A DNA stretch of 64,000 bases from Dysgonomonas sp. PF1-14 (GTDB lineage Bacteria; Bacteroidota; Bacteroidia; Bacteroidales; Dysgonomonadaceae). Of this stretch, positions 24 through 25,560 are shown piece after piece. The DNA is taken from positions 186,001 through 250,000 of the forward strand of contig NZ_JARXWN010000002.1 in assembly GCF_029892965.1 (NCBI RefSeq), in the 5' to 3' direction. Made by a program: the position numbers and the translations under genes. Below the pieces are notes generated by a model, which was given only the letters and a program-made list of their open reading frames with translations, searched no databases and was not told the DNA's origin. How positions within the stretch are numbered: position 1 is the stretch's first letter; each line of letters opens with the position of its first letter.

Positions 24-983
24 TTATTGAAGATGTATATTTCTTTCTTTCAGAACCTTTATCATGTCGGCAGTCATCTTTTCCAGATCGTACTCCGGGC
101 TCCAGCCCCATTCCTGACGGGCACAGGTATCGTCCAATGAATTAGGCCACGAATCGGCTATCGCCTGTTTCAGCGGGTCTACATCATATTCCATAACAAA
201 GTCAGGATAGTGCTTTTTGATAGCACTATACAGCATTTCGGGATCGAAGCTCATAGCTGCTATGTTGAACGAATTGCGGTGTATAAGTTTGTCTGGATTA
301 GCTTCCATAATGTTGATGGCCGCATTCAGTGCATCGGGCATATACATCATGTCCATGAAAGTGCCGGCCTTTAGCGGGCAGACGAATTTTTCTTCCTTCA
401 CAGCATTGTAATATATTTCCACAGCATAGTCGGTCGTACCGCCACCGGGATGTGTCAGATTGGATATAATTCCCGGAAAACGTACCGAGCGTGTATCAAC
501 CTTCCAGCGGGTGTAATAGTAGTCACTGAGAAGTTCGCCCATTACTTTCGTAATACCATAGACTGTATTCGGTCGTTGTACGGTATCCTGAGGGGTCTTG
601 TCTTTTGGCGTATCAGGCCCGAAGGCACCTATCGAACTTGGTGTGAATACAGCACAATTGAAATCGCGGGCTACATCCAGGCAGTTCATCAGGCTGCCTA
701 CACCTACTTCCCAACCCAATTTTGGGTTTTTCTCTGCCGTTGCCGATAATATAGCAGCCAGATTGTAAATCGTATCTATATTGTATTTCTTTACCGCATC
801 TGCTATCTGCTGTGCATCGGTAGCATCTATTTCTACAGTAGGCCCCCAATCGAAAAATCCTTCAGGATAGGGAGGTTTGTAATATCCGCAGATTACATTG
901 CTGTCGCCGTATATTGAGCGCAGCCTGATACTTAATTCCGAGCCTATCTGGCCGGTACTACCTACAATAAGAATGTTTTTCAT
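24..983 (-). CDS. tdh: L-threonine 3-dehydrogenase, SDR/epimerase-like type
   Basis: This 319-residue extended short-chain dehydrogenase carries the NAD-binding GxxGxxG at residues 8-14, the TPSS stretch near 114-118 that supplies the catalytic Ser, and YGITK (142-146) with the catalytic Tyr and Lys. Similarity of the whole protein to UDP-sugar epimerases, together with its position 15 bp downstream of kbl, fits the epimerase-like threonine dehydrogenases of Bacteroidetes. These oxidise L-threonine to 2-amino-3-ketobutyrate in the cytoplasm, and Kbl then cleaves the product to glycine and acetyl-CoA. Alone it could be read as a generic nucleotide-sugar epimerase; the kbl partner decides the call. 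The ATG start places the nucleotide-binding motif at the usual distance from the N terminus. Confidence 0.87.
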   Translation of the reverse strand: MKNILIVGSTGQIGSELSIRLRSIYGDSNVICGYYKPPYPEGFFDWGPTVEIDATDAQQIADAVKKYNIDTIYNLAAILSATAEKNPKLGWEVGVGSLMNCLDVARDFNCAVFTPSSIGAFGPDTPKDKTPQDTVQRPNTVYGITKVMGELLSDYYYTRWKVDTRSVRFPGIISNLTHPGGGTTDYAVEIYYNAVKEEKFVCPLKAGTFMDMMYMPDALNAAINIMEANPDKLIHRNSFNIAAMSFDPEMLYSAIKKHYPDFVMEYDVDPLKQAIADSWPNSLDDTCARQEWGWSPEYDLEKMTADMIKVLKERNIHLQ

Positions 984-19586: not shown

Positions 19587-21500
19587 CTACTTCTTAGGCA
19601 TTACCATATAAAATACCGGAGTCTTAGCTCCATCCGTTGTTATTCCATACAATTCTGTTACGACCCCGTCTTCCGGTTTTATCTTATCCTTCTCAAAGAA
19701 AATTTTTCCATTGTAAAAGCGGTCTAAAAATTTAGTTCGGGAAAGCTTCTTACCATCCGCTACATACCAATACAGGCGTAAATAATCGGAATCCTTCGGA
19801 TCAATCTTCTTACTATAAAACTCAGGAAAAACAGACAGTTCAGAAAGGCTTGGATAAAGTTTAGTATGATCAGCCTTCGAATTAGACAACTTACCAAAAT
19901 ACACCAATTGATACTTACCGGCTGAAGGTTCACCTATCCTGTCTTTTTCTGTCGAATAATTCACTTTTGCTAAATATTCTTTTACGCTTTTCTCGAAACC
20001 TTCGTTTTTCCGATTCTTTCTACCGCTGCTGTCTACAGATGTATAACTATATGTAGAATTATAATCTTTCTCAGATGATTTATTTATTGAGAAAACCTTA
20101 CCATAATCCACATCGGGTTTCAATGTCTTCTTTTCAAAATCAATAATCAATGTTGCATCAATAGGCACACCGTCTTTTCTGATCTCAAAATGCAGGTAGT
20201 CTTCTGTTGCAACTCCGGTACTTCCTGTTATGCCAATAACAGTTCCGGCAGTAATAGCTTTATTTAATGTCACCAGATTCTTTGAATTATGGGCATACAA
20301 TGTCGTTATTCCCAAGCCATGATCTATTACAATATAGTTTCCCAATACCTTGTCCATATCCGAAGCTATCACCGTACCTCCGAAAGCAGCTAAAATGCTA
20401 TCATTCTCTTGTCCTTTCAGGTCGTACCCTGAAGGAAAGCGTTCTGTTCCTTTATTCTCATATTTCGCCAAAACCTCAGTACTGGCAGGCAATGGAAAAC
20501 TAAAAAGAGGTGTCTCTGCCGCTGAATAAGAAAATTTATTCGTACTTTCGTGATGAGTGATTGAATCTAACGATTCTCTTACTTCGGGACGGGCAAAGGC
20601 ATACGCTGTAAGCGATACTATCGGCAGCAGAAGCAATAACTTTAGCTGTGCCCATTTGTTTGATTTTTCTTTTAACATCATAGTAATTCGTTTTTTAATC
20701 TTACTGTGATTGAAGCTGTTGGCAAGAGTGTAGGAGCTGGAGCCAACGGCTTTTTTCACTAATAACAGTTGATATTTTTTAGCATCGATGCCTGATTGCA
20801 ATACACACATATCGGCCTGATATTCGTGTATGTCTTTCATCTCACGTTTGAGAAGCCACATAGCCGGATTGAACCACTGGATGAGCAATATCAGTTCCAG
20901 AAATATCAGGTCGGCTGAGTGACGATGCCGGATATGCGCCAGCTCATGAACGAGAATTTCTTCCGGATTATGTTTATAATCATCTTCTGACAATACAATA
21001 TACTGCCCCCAACTAAAAGGGGAAATATTATTGGAAACCAAAACAAGTGTATAACCCGAATAATCTACTTTTCTACCTTTTCGTATCAGATTCCACATTG
21101 CTAACACAGATCGGAGAAGAATCAGTATATTTAAAAATCCTCCGATCAGATAGATGACAGCTAATACTTTCCCTGTATAGACAGAACTGTTCTGAAATAT
21201 TGCAGGCTCTTCTATATCCGTCAATTCCGTATTCAGAGCGCCACTTGTATATTGATCTGGTATAGAAACATTTGGGCTAACAATGGCCTCTTCAATCATA
21301 GCAAAGGGCTGCTGAATAACCGAAGGCTGCTCTATCGTAATCCTTACAAGGGGCAAAAGCATACAGATCAATGTTCCCGATAGCAACACCCAACGGTTGA
21401 AACCGAAGAATGTCTCCTTCGAAAAGAATGCCCTTATGCAGATATACAACAAAATGAGGTATATAGCTGACTTAAAGATATAGATCAGAAAAACGTCCAT
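19587..21500 (-). CDS. BlaR1-like M56 metallopeptidase sensor fused to a degenerate LytM (M23) domain
   Basis: 637 residues. The N-terminal half is BlaR1/MecR1-like: membrane helices near 5-25, 35-52, 112-138 and 285-303, with HELAH at 185-189 and HEYQAD at 225-230 giving the zinc site of the cytoplasmic protease. After the last helix the sensor part is not a penicillin-binding domain but an M23/LytM-like domain (about 340-450), ending in a ~180-residue unknown tail. In that domain the first zinc His is Pro356 and the first His of HxH is Tyr435. Asp360, His404 and His437 remain, so it probably binds rather than cuts peptidoglycan. The blaI-like gene is 7 bp upstream. Inference: it senses wall fragments and inactivates the repressor. 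Confidence 0.88.
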   Translation of the reverse strand: MDVFLIYIFKSAIYLILLYICIRAFFSKETFFGFNRWVLLSGTLICMLLPLVRITIEQPSVIQQPFAMIEEAIVSPNVSIPDQYTSGALNTELTDIEEPAIFQNSSVYTGKVLAVIYLIGGFLNILILLRSVLAMWNLIRKGRKVDYSGYTLVLVSNNISPFSWGQYIVLSEDDYKHNPEEILVHELAHIRHRHSADLIFLELILLIQWFNPAMWLLKREMKDIHEYQADMCVLQSGIDAKKYQLLLVKKAVGSSSYTLANSFNHSKIKKRITMMLKEKSNKWAQLKLLLLLPIVSLTAYAFARPEVRESLDSITHHESTNKFSYSAAETPLFSFPLPASTEVLAKYENKGTERFPSGYDLKGQENDSILAAFGGTVIASDMDKVLGNYIVIDHGLGITTLYAHNSKNLVTLNKAITAGTVIGITGSTGVATEDYLHFEIRKDGVPIDATLIIDFEKKTLKPDVDYGKVFSINKSSEKDYNSTYSYTSVDSSGRKNRKNEGFEKSVKEYLAKVNYSTEKDRIGEPSAGKYQLVYFGKLSNSKADHTKLYPSLSELSVFPEFYSKKIDPKDSDYLRLYWYVADGKKLSRTKFLDRFYNGKIFFEKDKIKPEDGVVTELYGITTDGAKTPVFYMVMPKK

Positions 21501-21507
21501 AACAACA

Positions 21508-21870
21508 CTATTTAGATTTATTCTTTATCTGCCGTATTAGATCCTGCAATTCTTCCACCGATAGCTTTTCTTCTTCTATCAGTGAAGATACAACACGCGT
21601 ATATGAGTTCCCGAAATACTTATCCACAACATTATCCAATGTCGATTTGCGGTATTCATCTTCCGAAATCAGAGCGTAATACTGATAGGTATTCCCATAA
21701 GCCTTATAACCGATATAATTCTTCTCCTCTAATATACGGACAATAGTAGATAGCGTATTATAATGAGGTTTAGGATCATCCTGTATCTCTAATAGTTCTT
21801 TAACGAACATCGGCCCCTTCGCCCAAAAACAACTAAGAATCTCCTCTTCTTTCTGTGTCAGTTTTTTCAT
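21508..21870 (-). CDS. BlaI/MecI/CopY-family transcriptional repressor
   Basis: 120 residues, the usual size. The LTQKEEEILSCFW start and the winged helix including HYNTLSTIVRILEEKNYIGY are diagnostic of the family; the C-terminal helices (about 80-120) form the dimer. It probably represses its own operon with the M56 sensor by binding the three palindromes at 21906-21964. Cleavage by the M56 protease would release repression. No beta-lactamase gene is adjacent, so targets are likely elsewhere or confined to this operon. Confidence 0.92.
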   Translation of the reverse strand: MKKLTQKEEEILSCFWAKGPMFVKELLEIQDDPKPHYNTLSTIVRILEEKNYIGYKAYGNTYQYYALISEDEYRKSTLDNVVDKYFGNSYTRVVSSLIEEEKLSVEELQDLIRQIKNKSK

Positions 21871-21905
21871 GATAGTTCTTTTGCTTGGTATTACATAGCA
21901 AATAT

Positions 21906-21964
21906 AACTATATATTTTAGTTACACAACTATAATATATAGTTTATAAACTATAACTAATAGTT
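21906..21964. promoter_or_regulatory. Three phased 17-bp palindromic operators upstream of the BlaI-like gene
   Basis: Boxes at 21906-21922, 21927-21943 and 21948-21964 each read AACTA-N7-TAGTT in the arms. They repeat every 21 bp, two helical turns, which places them on one face of the DNA. They start 36 bp upstream of the repressor ATG. The repressor family and this geometry support an operator array. Confidence 0.75.
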
Positions 21965-22043: not shown

Positions 22044-23105
22044 TTATCTTCTGTCTCTTGCCGAGTTTGTACTACCACCTGATGATTTAGACTTTTTAGC
22101 TTTAGGTGCTTTCGCTTTCGAGCCGGATGATTTAGAGTTCGACTTCTTAGACTTTGTAACATCTCCGTCCGCAGCTTTAATAGAGTCATTTATTACCCAA
22201 AGGTTCTTATCGAATTGCCTCAACTGCTTCTCTATACTATCCTGTGCAAGCTTCAAAGTCTCCGGTGTTTTAAACTGTTGCTGCAACAGTTTATTTTCCA
22301 TATTGGTAGTCTTGTATATTTCGCCTTCATATAGTCTCAGTCTGAAATAATCATCTATTGTTTTAGTCATCACATTATTCAGATTCGAAGCCATGATCGG
22401 CATACGCGCGGCATAAGGACGGATATTATCGTAAGGAATCCAAAACTGCGGTTGCGGCATACCTAGATCAGATGAGTACTCGAAATCGATACCTTCCAGA
22501 TATTCCTGACGCATCAGTACCGGACATATAGCCAACACTTTTATTCCCATTACCGAGTTAGATTGGTCAAAATACCAAGCCTCTTTTATATAATAGCGCA
22601 GTGCTTCATTACTCGGAATACTAAATTCATCATATATATATGCGTTCCCGTTCTTTTGATAAGGGATTTCCAGCTTTTCGAGTACATCCCCGAAATTGAT
22701 TTTCAGATTATCTGTAAACTGATCCTGACCGTTATTCCAGTCGTATGCAACCAGATTGCCGTCTCCCATCAGTTTGAATATCATAGTAAAGAAATTCATC
22801 TGATTGCCAATAGGTTGTACCGGATAATACAATGCTGCATTATTTCCTTTAGTAAGGTCAAGTATGCGGTAAACTTCGCGTATCCATGTAGCGTTGGTCA
22901 GGTCTTGTCCCTGATTTGCATTCATCATCTCGGCACGCACAGACATTCTGCTTACCTTCGGGCCATTGTCGGTTGAAGTGCCTTGTTCCTGTTGTTGCTT
23001 TTTAGCCAGCCTGTCGCGAAGCGATCCGGTCTGTTCCTGTGCATACAAGCTTGTAGCCATACACAGGCAGATTAATATAGCTGCTATTTGAAATATCTTA
23101 TTCAT
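22044..23105 (-). CDS. gldN: GldN/PorN-like type IX secretion protein
   Basis: 353 residues from the Met at 23105, with a signal peptide ending near SLYAQ. The core (about 50-285) follows GldN: TWIREVYRILDL, the ALYYPV segment, the IYDEFSIPS stretch, and FWIPYDNIRPYAARMPI. The C terminus (about 310-353) is a Lys/Ser-rich low-complexity tail. GldN/PorN forms periplasmic rings with the lipoprotein GldK/PorK in type IX secretion and gliding. The gene starts 8 bp after gldK, exactly where gldL and gldM normally intervene. The frame is open upstream into gldK; the signal peptide decides the start. Confidence 0.9.
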   Translation of the reverse strand: MNKIFQIAAILICLCMATSLYAQEQTGSLRDRLAKKQQQEQGTSTDNGPKVSRMSVRAEMMNANQGQDLTNATWIREVYRILDLTKGNNAALYYPVQPIGNQMNFFTMIFKLMGDGNLVAYDWNNGQDQFTDNLKINFGDVLEKLEIPYQKNGNAYIYDEFSIPSNEALRYYIKEAWYFDQSNSVMGIKVLAICPVLMRQEYLEGIDFEYSSDLGMPQPQFWIPYDNIRPYAARMPIMASNLNNVMTKTIDDYFRLRLYEGEIYKTTNMENKLLQQQFKTPETLKLAQDSIEKQLRQFDKNLWVINDSIKAADGDVTKSKKSNSKSSGSKAKAPKAKKSKSSGGSTNSARDRR

Positions 23106-23113
23106 CCTGTTTC

Positions 23114-24538
23114 TTATTTCTTCGATTTTGCAAAGCCTATTTGTGTCCTTACACATCTGAATCCAATATATGAACGGGGCTGATTCTGAAATTCTCCTTC
23201 CCGCATATCTCCTCTGATATTACGTCCTATATCTTTCCACGATCCGCCTTTCACGACCTTTTTCTTTATCGAATACGGGTCTTCTTTGGCAACATCGTAT
23301 CTGTATTGAGGATTCATATCGTTCATCATAGCTGTACCCGATTCGGTATAAGCTGTAGAAGTCCACTCCGAAACGTTACCGGCCAAATCGTAAATTCCAA
23401 AGCGATTCGGCACATAAGAGGCTACACGCGCCGGAATAAGGTTTCCGTCCTTTGTATAGTTTCCTTCTCCCGGTTTAAAGTTTGCCATGAAGCAAGCTTT
23501 CTCATCCATTGTACCTTCTCTGTCCCAAGGATATTTATTTTCGGTACGGCCATTACGAGCGGCAAACTCCCATTCTCCTTCGGTCGGTAAGCGGAATTCT
23601 TCGATCGGACGGCCATTACGTGGTTGCCCCATGCGATAGAACATCGTACGCCATTCGCAGAAAGCAGTCGCCTGTTCCCAGCTAACTCCTACCACAGGAT
23701 AATCGTTATAGCCGGCATGTGAAAAATACATACGCATATACGGCTCATTATAAGCATTGTTAAAGTCGTTCACCCAAACGGTAGTATCGGGATATATATT
23801 TACAATTTTGGTATGTACAAAATCGAATAGTGAAGACAACGGACGCACGATAGTTTCATTTATCGGAAGTCCTTCTTCGTTGATATAAGCCGTATCTTTC
23901 GATATCATTACCACCTCTTCAGGATTTACTGTTATATCTGTATTGAGTATTCTTTCTTGTGGAATCAGCCTGTTTCTGCGTTTAGCAGCCTCTGTATAAT
24001 CGAACCACTCATATTTGTAGTTCATCTGTCGGGCATCCAGATTGCGGCGTCCTGTTATCGGATGTATAAATGTAACACTGTTGATAGCCAGCTCCTCTTC
24101 CTCTAGTGGCTTTTTCGGTATCTGTTTTGTCCAGTCCAGATGTGGCTTCACCGGATCGCCATAACGGTCTTCGGTTATTTTAAATGTTTCGTCTCCACCA
24201 TAAGCAGGATCTGCCAGACGTTCGCGGATAATAGAGTCGCGTACCCAGTAAACAAACTGACGATACTTAGAGTTTGTAACTTCGGTTTCGTCCATCCAGA
24301 AATTATCTACGGATACACCTTTCGGATTAGCCTTTATGTCCCACAGAGAATCGCTCTCGGCAGGCCCCATTTCTATAGATCCACGCGAGACCAATACCAT
24401 TCCATAGGGTGAAGGTTCAGCCCATGACGAACCTTTTTCTCCGATTACTTCACCGCCGACACTGGAGCTTCCGGACGATTTTCCGCAGGAAGTAAGTATT
24501 GCAAGTAAAGCTATAGTCGCAAAAAACAGCTGTTTCAT
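23114..24538 (-). CDS. gldK: GldK/PorK-like type IX secretion lipoprotein
   Basis: 474 residues from the Met at 24538, with a lipoprotein signal and lipobox at Cys18 (AILTSC). The rest is a formylglycine-generating-enzyme-like (sulfatase-modifying factor) domain: MVLVSRGSIEMG near 50, DETEVTNSKYRQF, WEQATAFCEWR, RLPTEGEWEFAAR and the end motif RGDMREGEFQN...IGFRCVR. In GldK this fold is structural. It pairs with GldN in rings at the outer membrane. An alternative in-frame ATG is 4 codons upstream at 24550. It is flanked by porP upstream and gldN downstream, with the gldL and gldM motor genes absent. Confidence 0.92.
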   Translation of the reverse strand: MKQLFFATIALLAILTSCGKSSGSSSVGGEVIGEKGSSWAEPSPYGMVLVSRGSIEMGPAESDSLWDIKANPKGVSVDNFWMDETEVTNSKYRQFVYWVRDSIIRERLADPAYGGDETFKITEDRYGDPVKPHLDWTKQIPKKPLEEEELAINSVTFIHPITGRRNLDARQMNYKYEWFDYTEAAKRRNRLIPQERILNTDITVNPEEVVMISKDTAYINEEGLPINETIVRPLSSLFDFVHTKIVNIYPDTTVWVNDFNNAYNEPYMRMYFSHAGYNDYPVVGVSWEQATAFCEWRTMFYRMGQPRNGRPIEEFRLPTEGEWEFAARNGRTENKYPWDREGTMDEKACFMANFKPGEGNYTKDGNLIPARVASYVPNRFGIYDLAGNVSEWTSTAYTESGTAMMNDMNPQYRYDVAKEDPYSIKKKVVKGGSWKDIGRNIRGDMREGEFQNQPRSYIGFRCVRTQIGFAKSKK

Positions 24539-24609
24539 ATTTATGTTCATTAGCTTTTAGCTATTAACGTTTTCGGATTGATGTAATTTTGTATTTATCC
24601 GTATTTATG

Positions 24610-25560
24610 TTACAATATTCTGACACTCTTACTAGCACCCGGCTCTCTTTTCTTAGTCAGAGGAATGCTATATCGTATAAATAATTCGTGGCTACCACTG
24701 GTTGCACCAGACAATGCCGATGATGTTACAAGATCGTACGAATAGCCTGCGTCAATATTTTTTATTTTAACGCCCAGCAAAAATACAAAACCTTCGCCTT
24801 TTCTCCAAGATATTCCACCATTGAACATCTTATTATATTCAACTTTTGCCGTAACGTCCAATTGATAAGTGACAGCATCAGATTTAAAGAAGGCAGAAGG
24901 CTGCAATTCTATTAACGGATTATTCAGTTTTATATTGTATCCACCCATCAAATAATAGGTGCGCGCAACATAGGCGGAGCGGTCATCTCCGATATCGAAT
25001 CCGGGCTCCCAGAGATGGCTTGCCGAAACACCTACATAATATTTCGGTGTGATCCATGCAACACCGAGACCGGCATCAAGGGTTTTCCCCCCACTTCCAT
25101 TTGGTATTGCCGGATCGGACTTATCATGATATTCACTATCGGGTATATGTATCTTCGAAGCATCGAAATCTATATTCATAAAGCTTGCCTGAAGAGCTAC
25201 ATGAAGGAATTTATTATTCTTAAACTTAAACTTGTAAGCGTATTGTCCTGTCATATAGGTATTCGAGAAAAGTCCGACTTTCTCGTTTGTCATTATAACG
25301 CCTACCCCATGATCTTTGCCCAGAAACTTAACAGGCATATTCACTGACACTACTGACGTTACCGGAGCATTGGTAAAACCGACCCACTGCCTACGATGCA
25401 GCAGGGCACTTTCCATATTATTTGTTTCGGCTATGAATGCAGGATTGTAAAAGTTCTTCAACCTCCAGTACTGGCTTATCTGGGCGTCCCATTGCCCATA
25501 TACAGAACAGATGTTGAAAACCAAAAACAGGGTAAGTAATATTCTATTTTTAAACCTCAT
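24610..25560 (-). CDS. porP: PorP/SprF-family outer membrane protein of type IX secretion
   Basis: 316 residues with a signal peptide ending near residue 22 (VYGQWDAQ). The QYWRLKNFYNPAFIAE segment and repeated amphipathic strands, e.g. GVGVIMTNEKVGLFSNTYMTGQYAYKFKF, are typical of the PorP/SprF family, 14- to 16-stranded outer membrane beta-barrels. PorP binds the PorK-PorN rings or anchors surface adhesins. It leads the three-gene cluster, 72 bp before gldK. A minus-strand TACCTTTG box (25710-25717) upstream is the likely promoter, giving a leader of about 145 nt. Confidence 0.9.
   Translation of the reverse strand: MRFKNRILLTLFLVFNICSVYGQWDAQISQYWRLKNFYNPAFIAETNNMESALLHRRQWVGFTNAPVTSVVSVNMPVKFLGKDHGVGVIMTNEKVGLFSNTYMTGQYAYKFKFKNNKFLHVALQASFMNIDFDASKIHIPDSEYHDKSDPAIPNGSGGKTLDAGLGVAWITPKYYVGVSASHLWEPGFDIGDDRSAYVARTYYLMGGYNIKLNNPLIELQPSAFFKSDAVTYQLDVTAKVEYNKMFNGGISWRKGEGFVFLLGVKIKNIDAGYSYDLVTSSALSGATSGSHELFIRYSIPLTKKREPGASKSVRIL

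Follow-up and report, generated by a model that had tools for sequence, protein, structure and literature searches.

The 64,000-nucleotide stretch of the Dysgonomonas sp. PF1-14 genome analysed here (the window) carries, on its reverse strand, a BlaI/MecI-like repressor gene (120 residues; 21508..21870) and, 7 nt downstream of it, the gene for a 637-residue receptor (19587..21500, stop codon included) that joins an M56 protease part to an M23/LytM domain and a C-terminal tail. Proteins resembling BlaR1 are familiar as receptors for antibiotics. At the level of sequence, alignment and fold prediction, the BlaI-like gene, intact M56 motifs, three phased dyads, an M23 fold and the loss of two active-site histidines are established; we read them, with moderate confidence, as a two-gene self-regulating module of the BlaI-BlaR1 kind whose peptidoglycan-hydrolase ectodomain has turned pseudoenzyme.

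The repressor matches Penicillinase_R (Pfam, 2.1e-28), MecI (2.4e-10) and BlaI (5.4e-6), and its gene adjoins that of the receptor, as is the case for BlaR1 and MecR1. Upstream of it, the word AACTA-N7-TAGTT occurs three times at a spacing of 21 bp (boxes 1 to 3 at 21906..21922, 21927..21943 and 21948..21964 on the forward strand). Box 1 shares one base with the element TATATTTG on the reverse strand (21899-21906), which we take to be the Bacteroidota -7 promoter element. Such phased dyads give a picture of autoregulation, in which the repressor would bind ahead of its own gene. The 4.58 Mb genome holds no exact copy of the word beyond these three, whereas a reversed control occurs 18 times, and a double box with at most two mismatches was found in two registers at the operon (0 mismatches) and at one other place (2 mismatches; control 14). 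Genome-wide searches for further regulon members with mismatches allowed did not exceed the reversed control. What is distinctive here is the set of three evenly spaced boxes ahead of this operon.

Related dyads precede other repressor genes of the genus. Exact ACTA-N7-TAGT is found in 14 of 30 repressor-upstream regions (160 bases scanned, paralogues included; L002 and L031, which duplicate L007 and L009, excluded), where base shuffles average 0.18, and 8 of these 14 regions have the 21-bp spacing. At L008 the promoter lies outside the scanned 160 bases; an exact site is present there in separate genome and upstream scans.

The receptor and its degenerate M23 domain

The M56 part spans residues 1-303 (20592..21500, reverse strand, as are all receptor features below) and matches Peptidase_M56 over residues 14-275 (Pfam, E 5.9e-15). 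The zinc protease motif HELAH (185-189; 20934..20948) and the HEYQAD motif with the third-ligand Glu and conserved Asp (225-230; 20811..20828) are intact, as a preliminary description of this receptor had stated, and their combination of HExxH and third Glu ligand places it among the M56 proteins. This part aligns with the solved BlaR1 structure 8exp (sequence match, 7.9e-6) at the HExxH motif, the third-ligand helix and the autocleavage loop, which reads LANSF in the window (259-263; 20712..20726) and L280-S-H-S-F284 in BlaR1. A passage of a BlaR1 study gives the LSHSF loop as the site where BlaR1 cuts itself (PMC9834060). The loop Phe, Arg271 and Asp230 are identical in all 18 aligned M56-M23 fusions. 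Hydrophobic segments lie near residues 1-27, 31-62, 105-140 and 283-304, with a weaker one near 196-217, a pattern that fits the BlaR1 order and would place the M23 domain outside. The receptor scores 37.1 bits against the NCBIfam model blaR1_generic, below its cut-off of 400.

The preliminary description had taken a penicillin-binding sensor as the normal end of such proteins. In this group that norm was not borne out: among 20 M56 proteins scanned with Pfam, a set in which fusions are over-represented, none showed a penicillin-binding domain, and the end of the window receptor is instead formed by the M23 domain and a tail without a Pfam match.

The M23/LytM domain (329-458; 20127..20516) is recognized both by its LytM fold and by its Peptidase_M23 match (residues 356-448, E 4e-24), and lacks the full set of zinc and catalytic residues. 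In alignments with two congeneric orthologues (G016 and G018) and with 17 other M56-M23 fusions, Pro356 (20433..20435) occupies the place of the first His in HxxxD and Tyr435 (20196..20198) that of the first His in HxH, while Asp360, His404 and His437 are retained. The first motif thus reads FPSGYD in the window versus FHFGYD (G016) and LHPGYD (G018), and the second EDYLHFEI versus GDHLHFEI and GEHLHFEI. For LytM itself, the cited passage lists H210, D214 and H293 as zinc ligands and His260 and His291 as activating the water, and reports that Ala in place of either catalytic His abolishes activity (PMC4594094). Since our motif-based pairing equates Pro356 with LytM H210 and Tyr435 with LytM H291, the window domain has lost one metal and one catalytic His. 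The Pfam matches and alignments therefore bear out the earlier description of an M56 sensor fused to a LytM domain that lacks two conserved histidines and keeps the other three residues.

An intact zinc site with shifted ligands was rejected, there being no spare His near 356 or 435 in the sequence that could replace either. Sequencing error is disfavoured as a cause, with two separate residues affected and further changes at 431, 433 and 449.

The predicted structure of the domain is of good confidence (block means of the predicted local distance difference test, pLDDT, 77-97). DipM is among its nearest relatives by sequence and by fold, and structure comparison places the model near DipM and EnvC, tied with active enzymes; the likeness to EnvC proposed earlier is supported at the level of the fold. 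Passages of the cited studies describe DipM (PMC10336132) and EnvC and NlpD (PMC9662197) as periplasmic regulators of autolysins. The window domain has in common with these proteins a LytM fold with a degenerate site, whereas they carry no M56 protease.

M56-M23 fusions and exchange of the ectodomain

Fusions of this architecture recur in the Bacteroidia. Of the 24 other genomes of the genus, 2 carry one; a draw of 295 genomes from the order yielded 6 other genomes with fusions, and a draw of 395 from the class yielded 9, with 10 genes. Of these 18 other genes, 17 were read (G635 C5 was left out). These counts are underestimates because at most five candidates per genome were scored in the order draw and at most four in the class draw, with strict E-values. 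An M23-only open reading frame (L116 506-1438) and the second M56 protein of G018 were aligned but stand outside the 17. Among 90 distinct M56 frames, M23 is present in 18, namely the window and these 17. A single-protein scan of genome contigs returned only two matches to the M23 part, both in contigs of other phyla. A BlaI-like gene adjoins every one of the 17 fusions. Upstream of them, ACTA-N6-TAGT is found in 12 and ACTA-N7-TAGT in 2 (the congeners); L125 and L128 have ACTG-N6-CAGT, and L121 has none of these words.

All 17 other fusions preserve the zinc ligands and a His at position 435, and 13 of them also the His at 404 (Gln in L097, L099, L101 and L121), so that the whole M23 active site is present in 13. 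For this reason most of the other fusions are probably enzymes. Changes at positions 356 and 435 occur in none of the 17; the degenerate state is seen only in the window, and by this alignment the active-site loss is lineage-specific. A review of the M23 family includes M56 in a set of partner catalytic domains jointly accounting for less than 1% of hits, and calls a role of M56 in peptidoglycan cleavage undemonstrated (PMC9662197). Among the literature matches listed, nothing beyond this passage concerned the M56-M23 form.

Two of the fusions, L125 1402-3420 and L128 1363-3327, are M56-M23-Amidase_3 triple fusions (Amidase_3 in Pfam, 7.9e-44 and 3.5e-48, respectively), each beside a BlaI-like gene. 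At L009 1501-4374 (G018), the gene immediately after the M56-M23 fusion encodes another M56 protein, which has a proline-rich tail but lacks M23.

The C-terminal tail (498-637; 19590..20009) was described earlier as of unknown nature. It has no Pfam family above cut-off and no sequence match in the Protein Data Bank better than E 0.09, and no viral relative of it was found; nevertheless, it is common to M56 proteins of three congeners (46-51% identity in G006, G011 and G019), with weak tail-like copies in a fourth, G021. A draw of 314 genomes from the order, whose list includes two other members of the genus, gave no match to it outside its own genome. Folded alone, it gave a low-confidence model (mean pLDDT 39), and we claim no new fold for it.

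Comparison of the window with seven stretches from congeners showed the BlaI-like and M56 genes in all seven, and the window's U32 peptidase-like gene nearby in six, the exception being G003. Repressor identity across these loci is 80-88%; the receptor alignments, which differ in extent, give 44-60%. The ectodomain is M23 in G016 and G018, the tail without M23 in G006, G011 and G019, the weak tail-like copies in G021 and of another kind in G003. On these alignments, the ectodomain is swapped between species at a syntenic locus.

Interpretation of the module

The module shares with the BlaI-BlaR1 and MecI-MecR1 systems of Gram-positive bacteria a repressor gene beside an M56 receptor gene, dyads over the promoter region, and the HExxH motif, third Glu, conserved Asp and LxxSF loop. 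It differs in that the receptor has an M23 ectodomain, with no penicillin-binding sensor found, that the operon consists of two genes without a beta-lactamase or penicillin-binding protein gene, and that the exact operator is present only at its own promoter. With the M56-M23 proteins of other Bacteroidia it has in common the order of the two domains and the neighbouring BlaI-like gene, unlike them having lost the M23 site (P356, Y435) and added a genus-level tail.

By analogy with BlaR1, a repressor dimer would keep operon expression low until the M23 domain in the periplasm, together with the tail, engages peptidoglycan or a wall enzyme; the last membrane helix would relay this docking state to the protease in the cytoplasm, and cleavage of the repressor by that protease would raise the output of the operon. 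The four Amidase_3 matches in the genome are candidate partners of the ectodomain. In most relatives the ectodomain probably cuts peptidoglycan, making receptor and effector one protein, while in the window lineage only a binding groove would be left, as in EnvC or DipM, and the domain could probably at most bind. Peptidoglycan sensing by the ectodomain is plausible. The earlier proposal of a repressor-cleaving sensor of peptidoglycan is partly supported, through the BlaR1-like protease, the BlaI-like partner, the LANSF loop and the LytM fold, with its sensing, cleavage and activation steps being predictions. The intact sites of the other fusions count against a pure pseudo-LytM sensor as a general design; for most of them active hydrolysis fits better than pure sensing.

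Several observations weigh against this interpretation. Boxes with one mismatch occur at 183 places in the genome (329 for the reversed control), and targets with mismatched boxes may exist elsewhere in it. Counts of the exact operator word range from 0 to 8 across 25 genomes of the genus and are lower than those of the reversed control every time, and many of the occurrences lie away from this operon; the rarity of the word is partly general in the genus, and because the control exceeds the word in 25/25 genomes, it is no neutral baseline. Within the M23 domain, 11 of 27 strongly conserved columns are broken in the window, compared with 7 in G016 and 4 in G018, and with the 13 private changes scattered at random over 130 positions, the chance of striking two or more of the five catalytic positions is 0.08. 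On both counts, retention under selection falls short of proof. Pro356 and Tyr435 are known from a single genome, one genome having been taken per species, and may not be fixed; ligand binding, wall binding and repressor cleavage are predictions, the last of them from likeness of motifs.

A serious possibility, if a somewhat doubtful one, is that M56-M23 proteins are mainly inducible, membrane-held wall enzymes, with the ectodomain serving as output and another element detecting the trigger, such as the membrane part or the repressor through a ligand; in the window species the tail would have taken over, leaving M23 as a passive spacer. Its seriousness stems from the largely intact sites of the relatives and from the lack of a second exact operator in the genome, by which the main product of the operon would be the protein itself. 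The Amidase_3 domains of two fusions are also in its favour, as are G006, G011 and G019, where the tail is present next to the same U32 gene and M23 is not, and a Bacillus study reporting that BlaI itself binds a peptidoglycan dipeptide (PMC3305447). The rate of change speaks against this alternative: M23 identity is 54% between the window and G016, 49% between the window and G018 and 51% between G016 and G018, and private changes number 13, 10 and 18 in the window, G016 and G018, so by these two measures the window domain is overall no faster evolving than in its two intact congeners.

More speculatively, and in our estimate unlikely to hold as a whole, the locus could be a one-protein wall-stress circuit with a wall-acting ectodomain, a repressor serving essentially its own promoter and ectodomains exchanged as cassettes (active M23, M23 with amidase, pseudo-M23 with tail, or tail alone), the pseudo-M23 of this species both docking on a wall amidase and reporting that contact to transcription.

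Neutral decay, with the M23 domain a recent remnant in the course of being lost, strikes us as improbable. The two active-site losses, the additional changes at conserved Ser431 and Pro449 and the broken columns would all be expected of it; against it, the frame is open, the fold model is good, and identity to G016 is no lower than that between G016 and G018. A zinc enzyme using other ligands is highly improbable: Asp360, His404 and His437 remain, but a zinc ligand (of three) and a catalytic histidine (of two) have been lost with no substitute His nearby, and the cited passage has LytM inactive after either catalytic His is changed to Ala (PMC4594094). We thus read the window M23 domain as probably a retained pseudoenzyme.

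The PF1-14 genome alone encodes four M56 proteins, and ectodomains other than penicillin-binding ones are common in the group. What such receptors sense is directly testable here because the repressor is conserved, the exact dyads are confined to the operon, and species with intact and with lost M23 sites are at hand. The other three M56 genes (L001, L003 and L004) have BlaI-like genes preceded by differing dyad-like words, noted by eye: GTCTA..TAGAC, TACGAAAAAATAGTAG and an AACTA..TAGTT-like word.

Neighbouring genes

At 22044-24550 on the reverse strand, neighbouring gldK-like and gldN-like genes overlap, no gldL or gldM standing between them, and a porP-like gene lies nearby at 24610-25560; we assign these names from sequence character. 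The gldK-like/gldN-like adjacency is also seen in G011 and G021, where gldN-like genes lie directly upstream of the repressor-receptor locus. Further along, 39219-60024 (reverse strand) holds a gene cluster of mostly low G+C content with glycosyltransferase-, flippase- and chain-length-like members, presumably a surface polysaccharide locus to judge from the character of the sequences.
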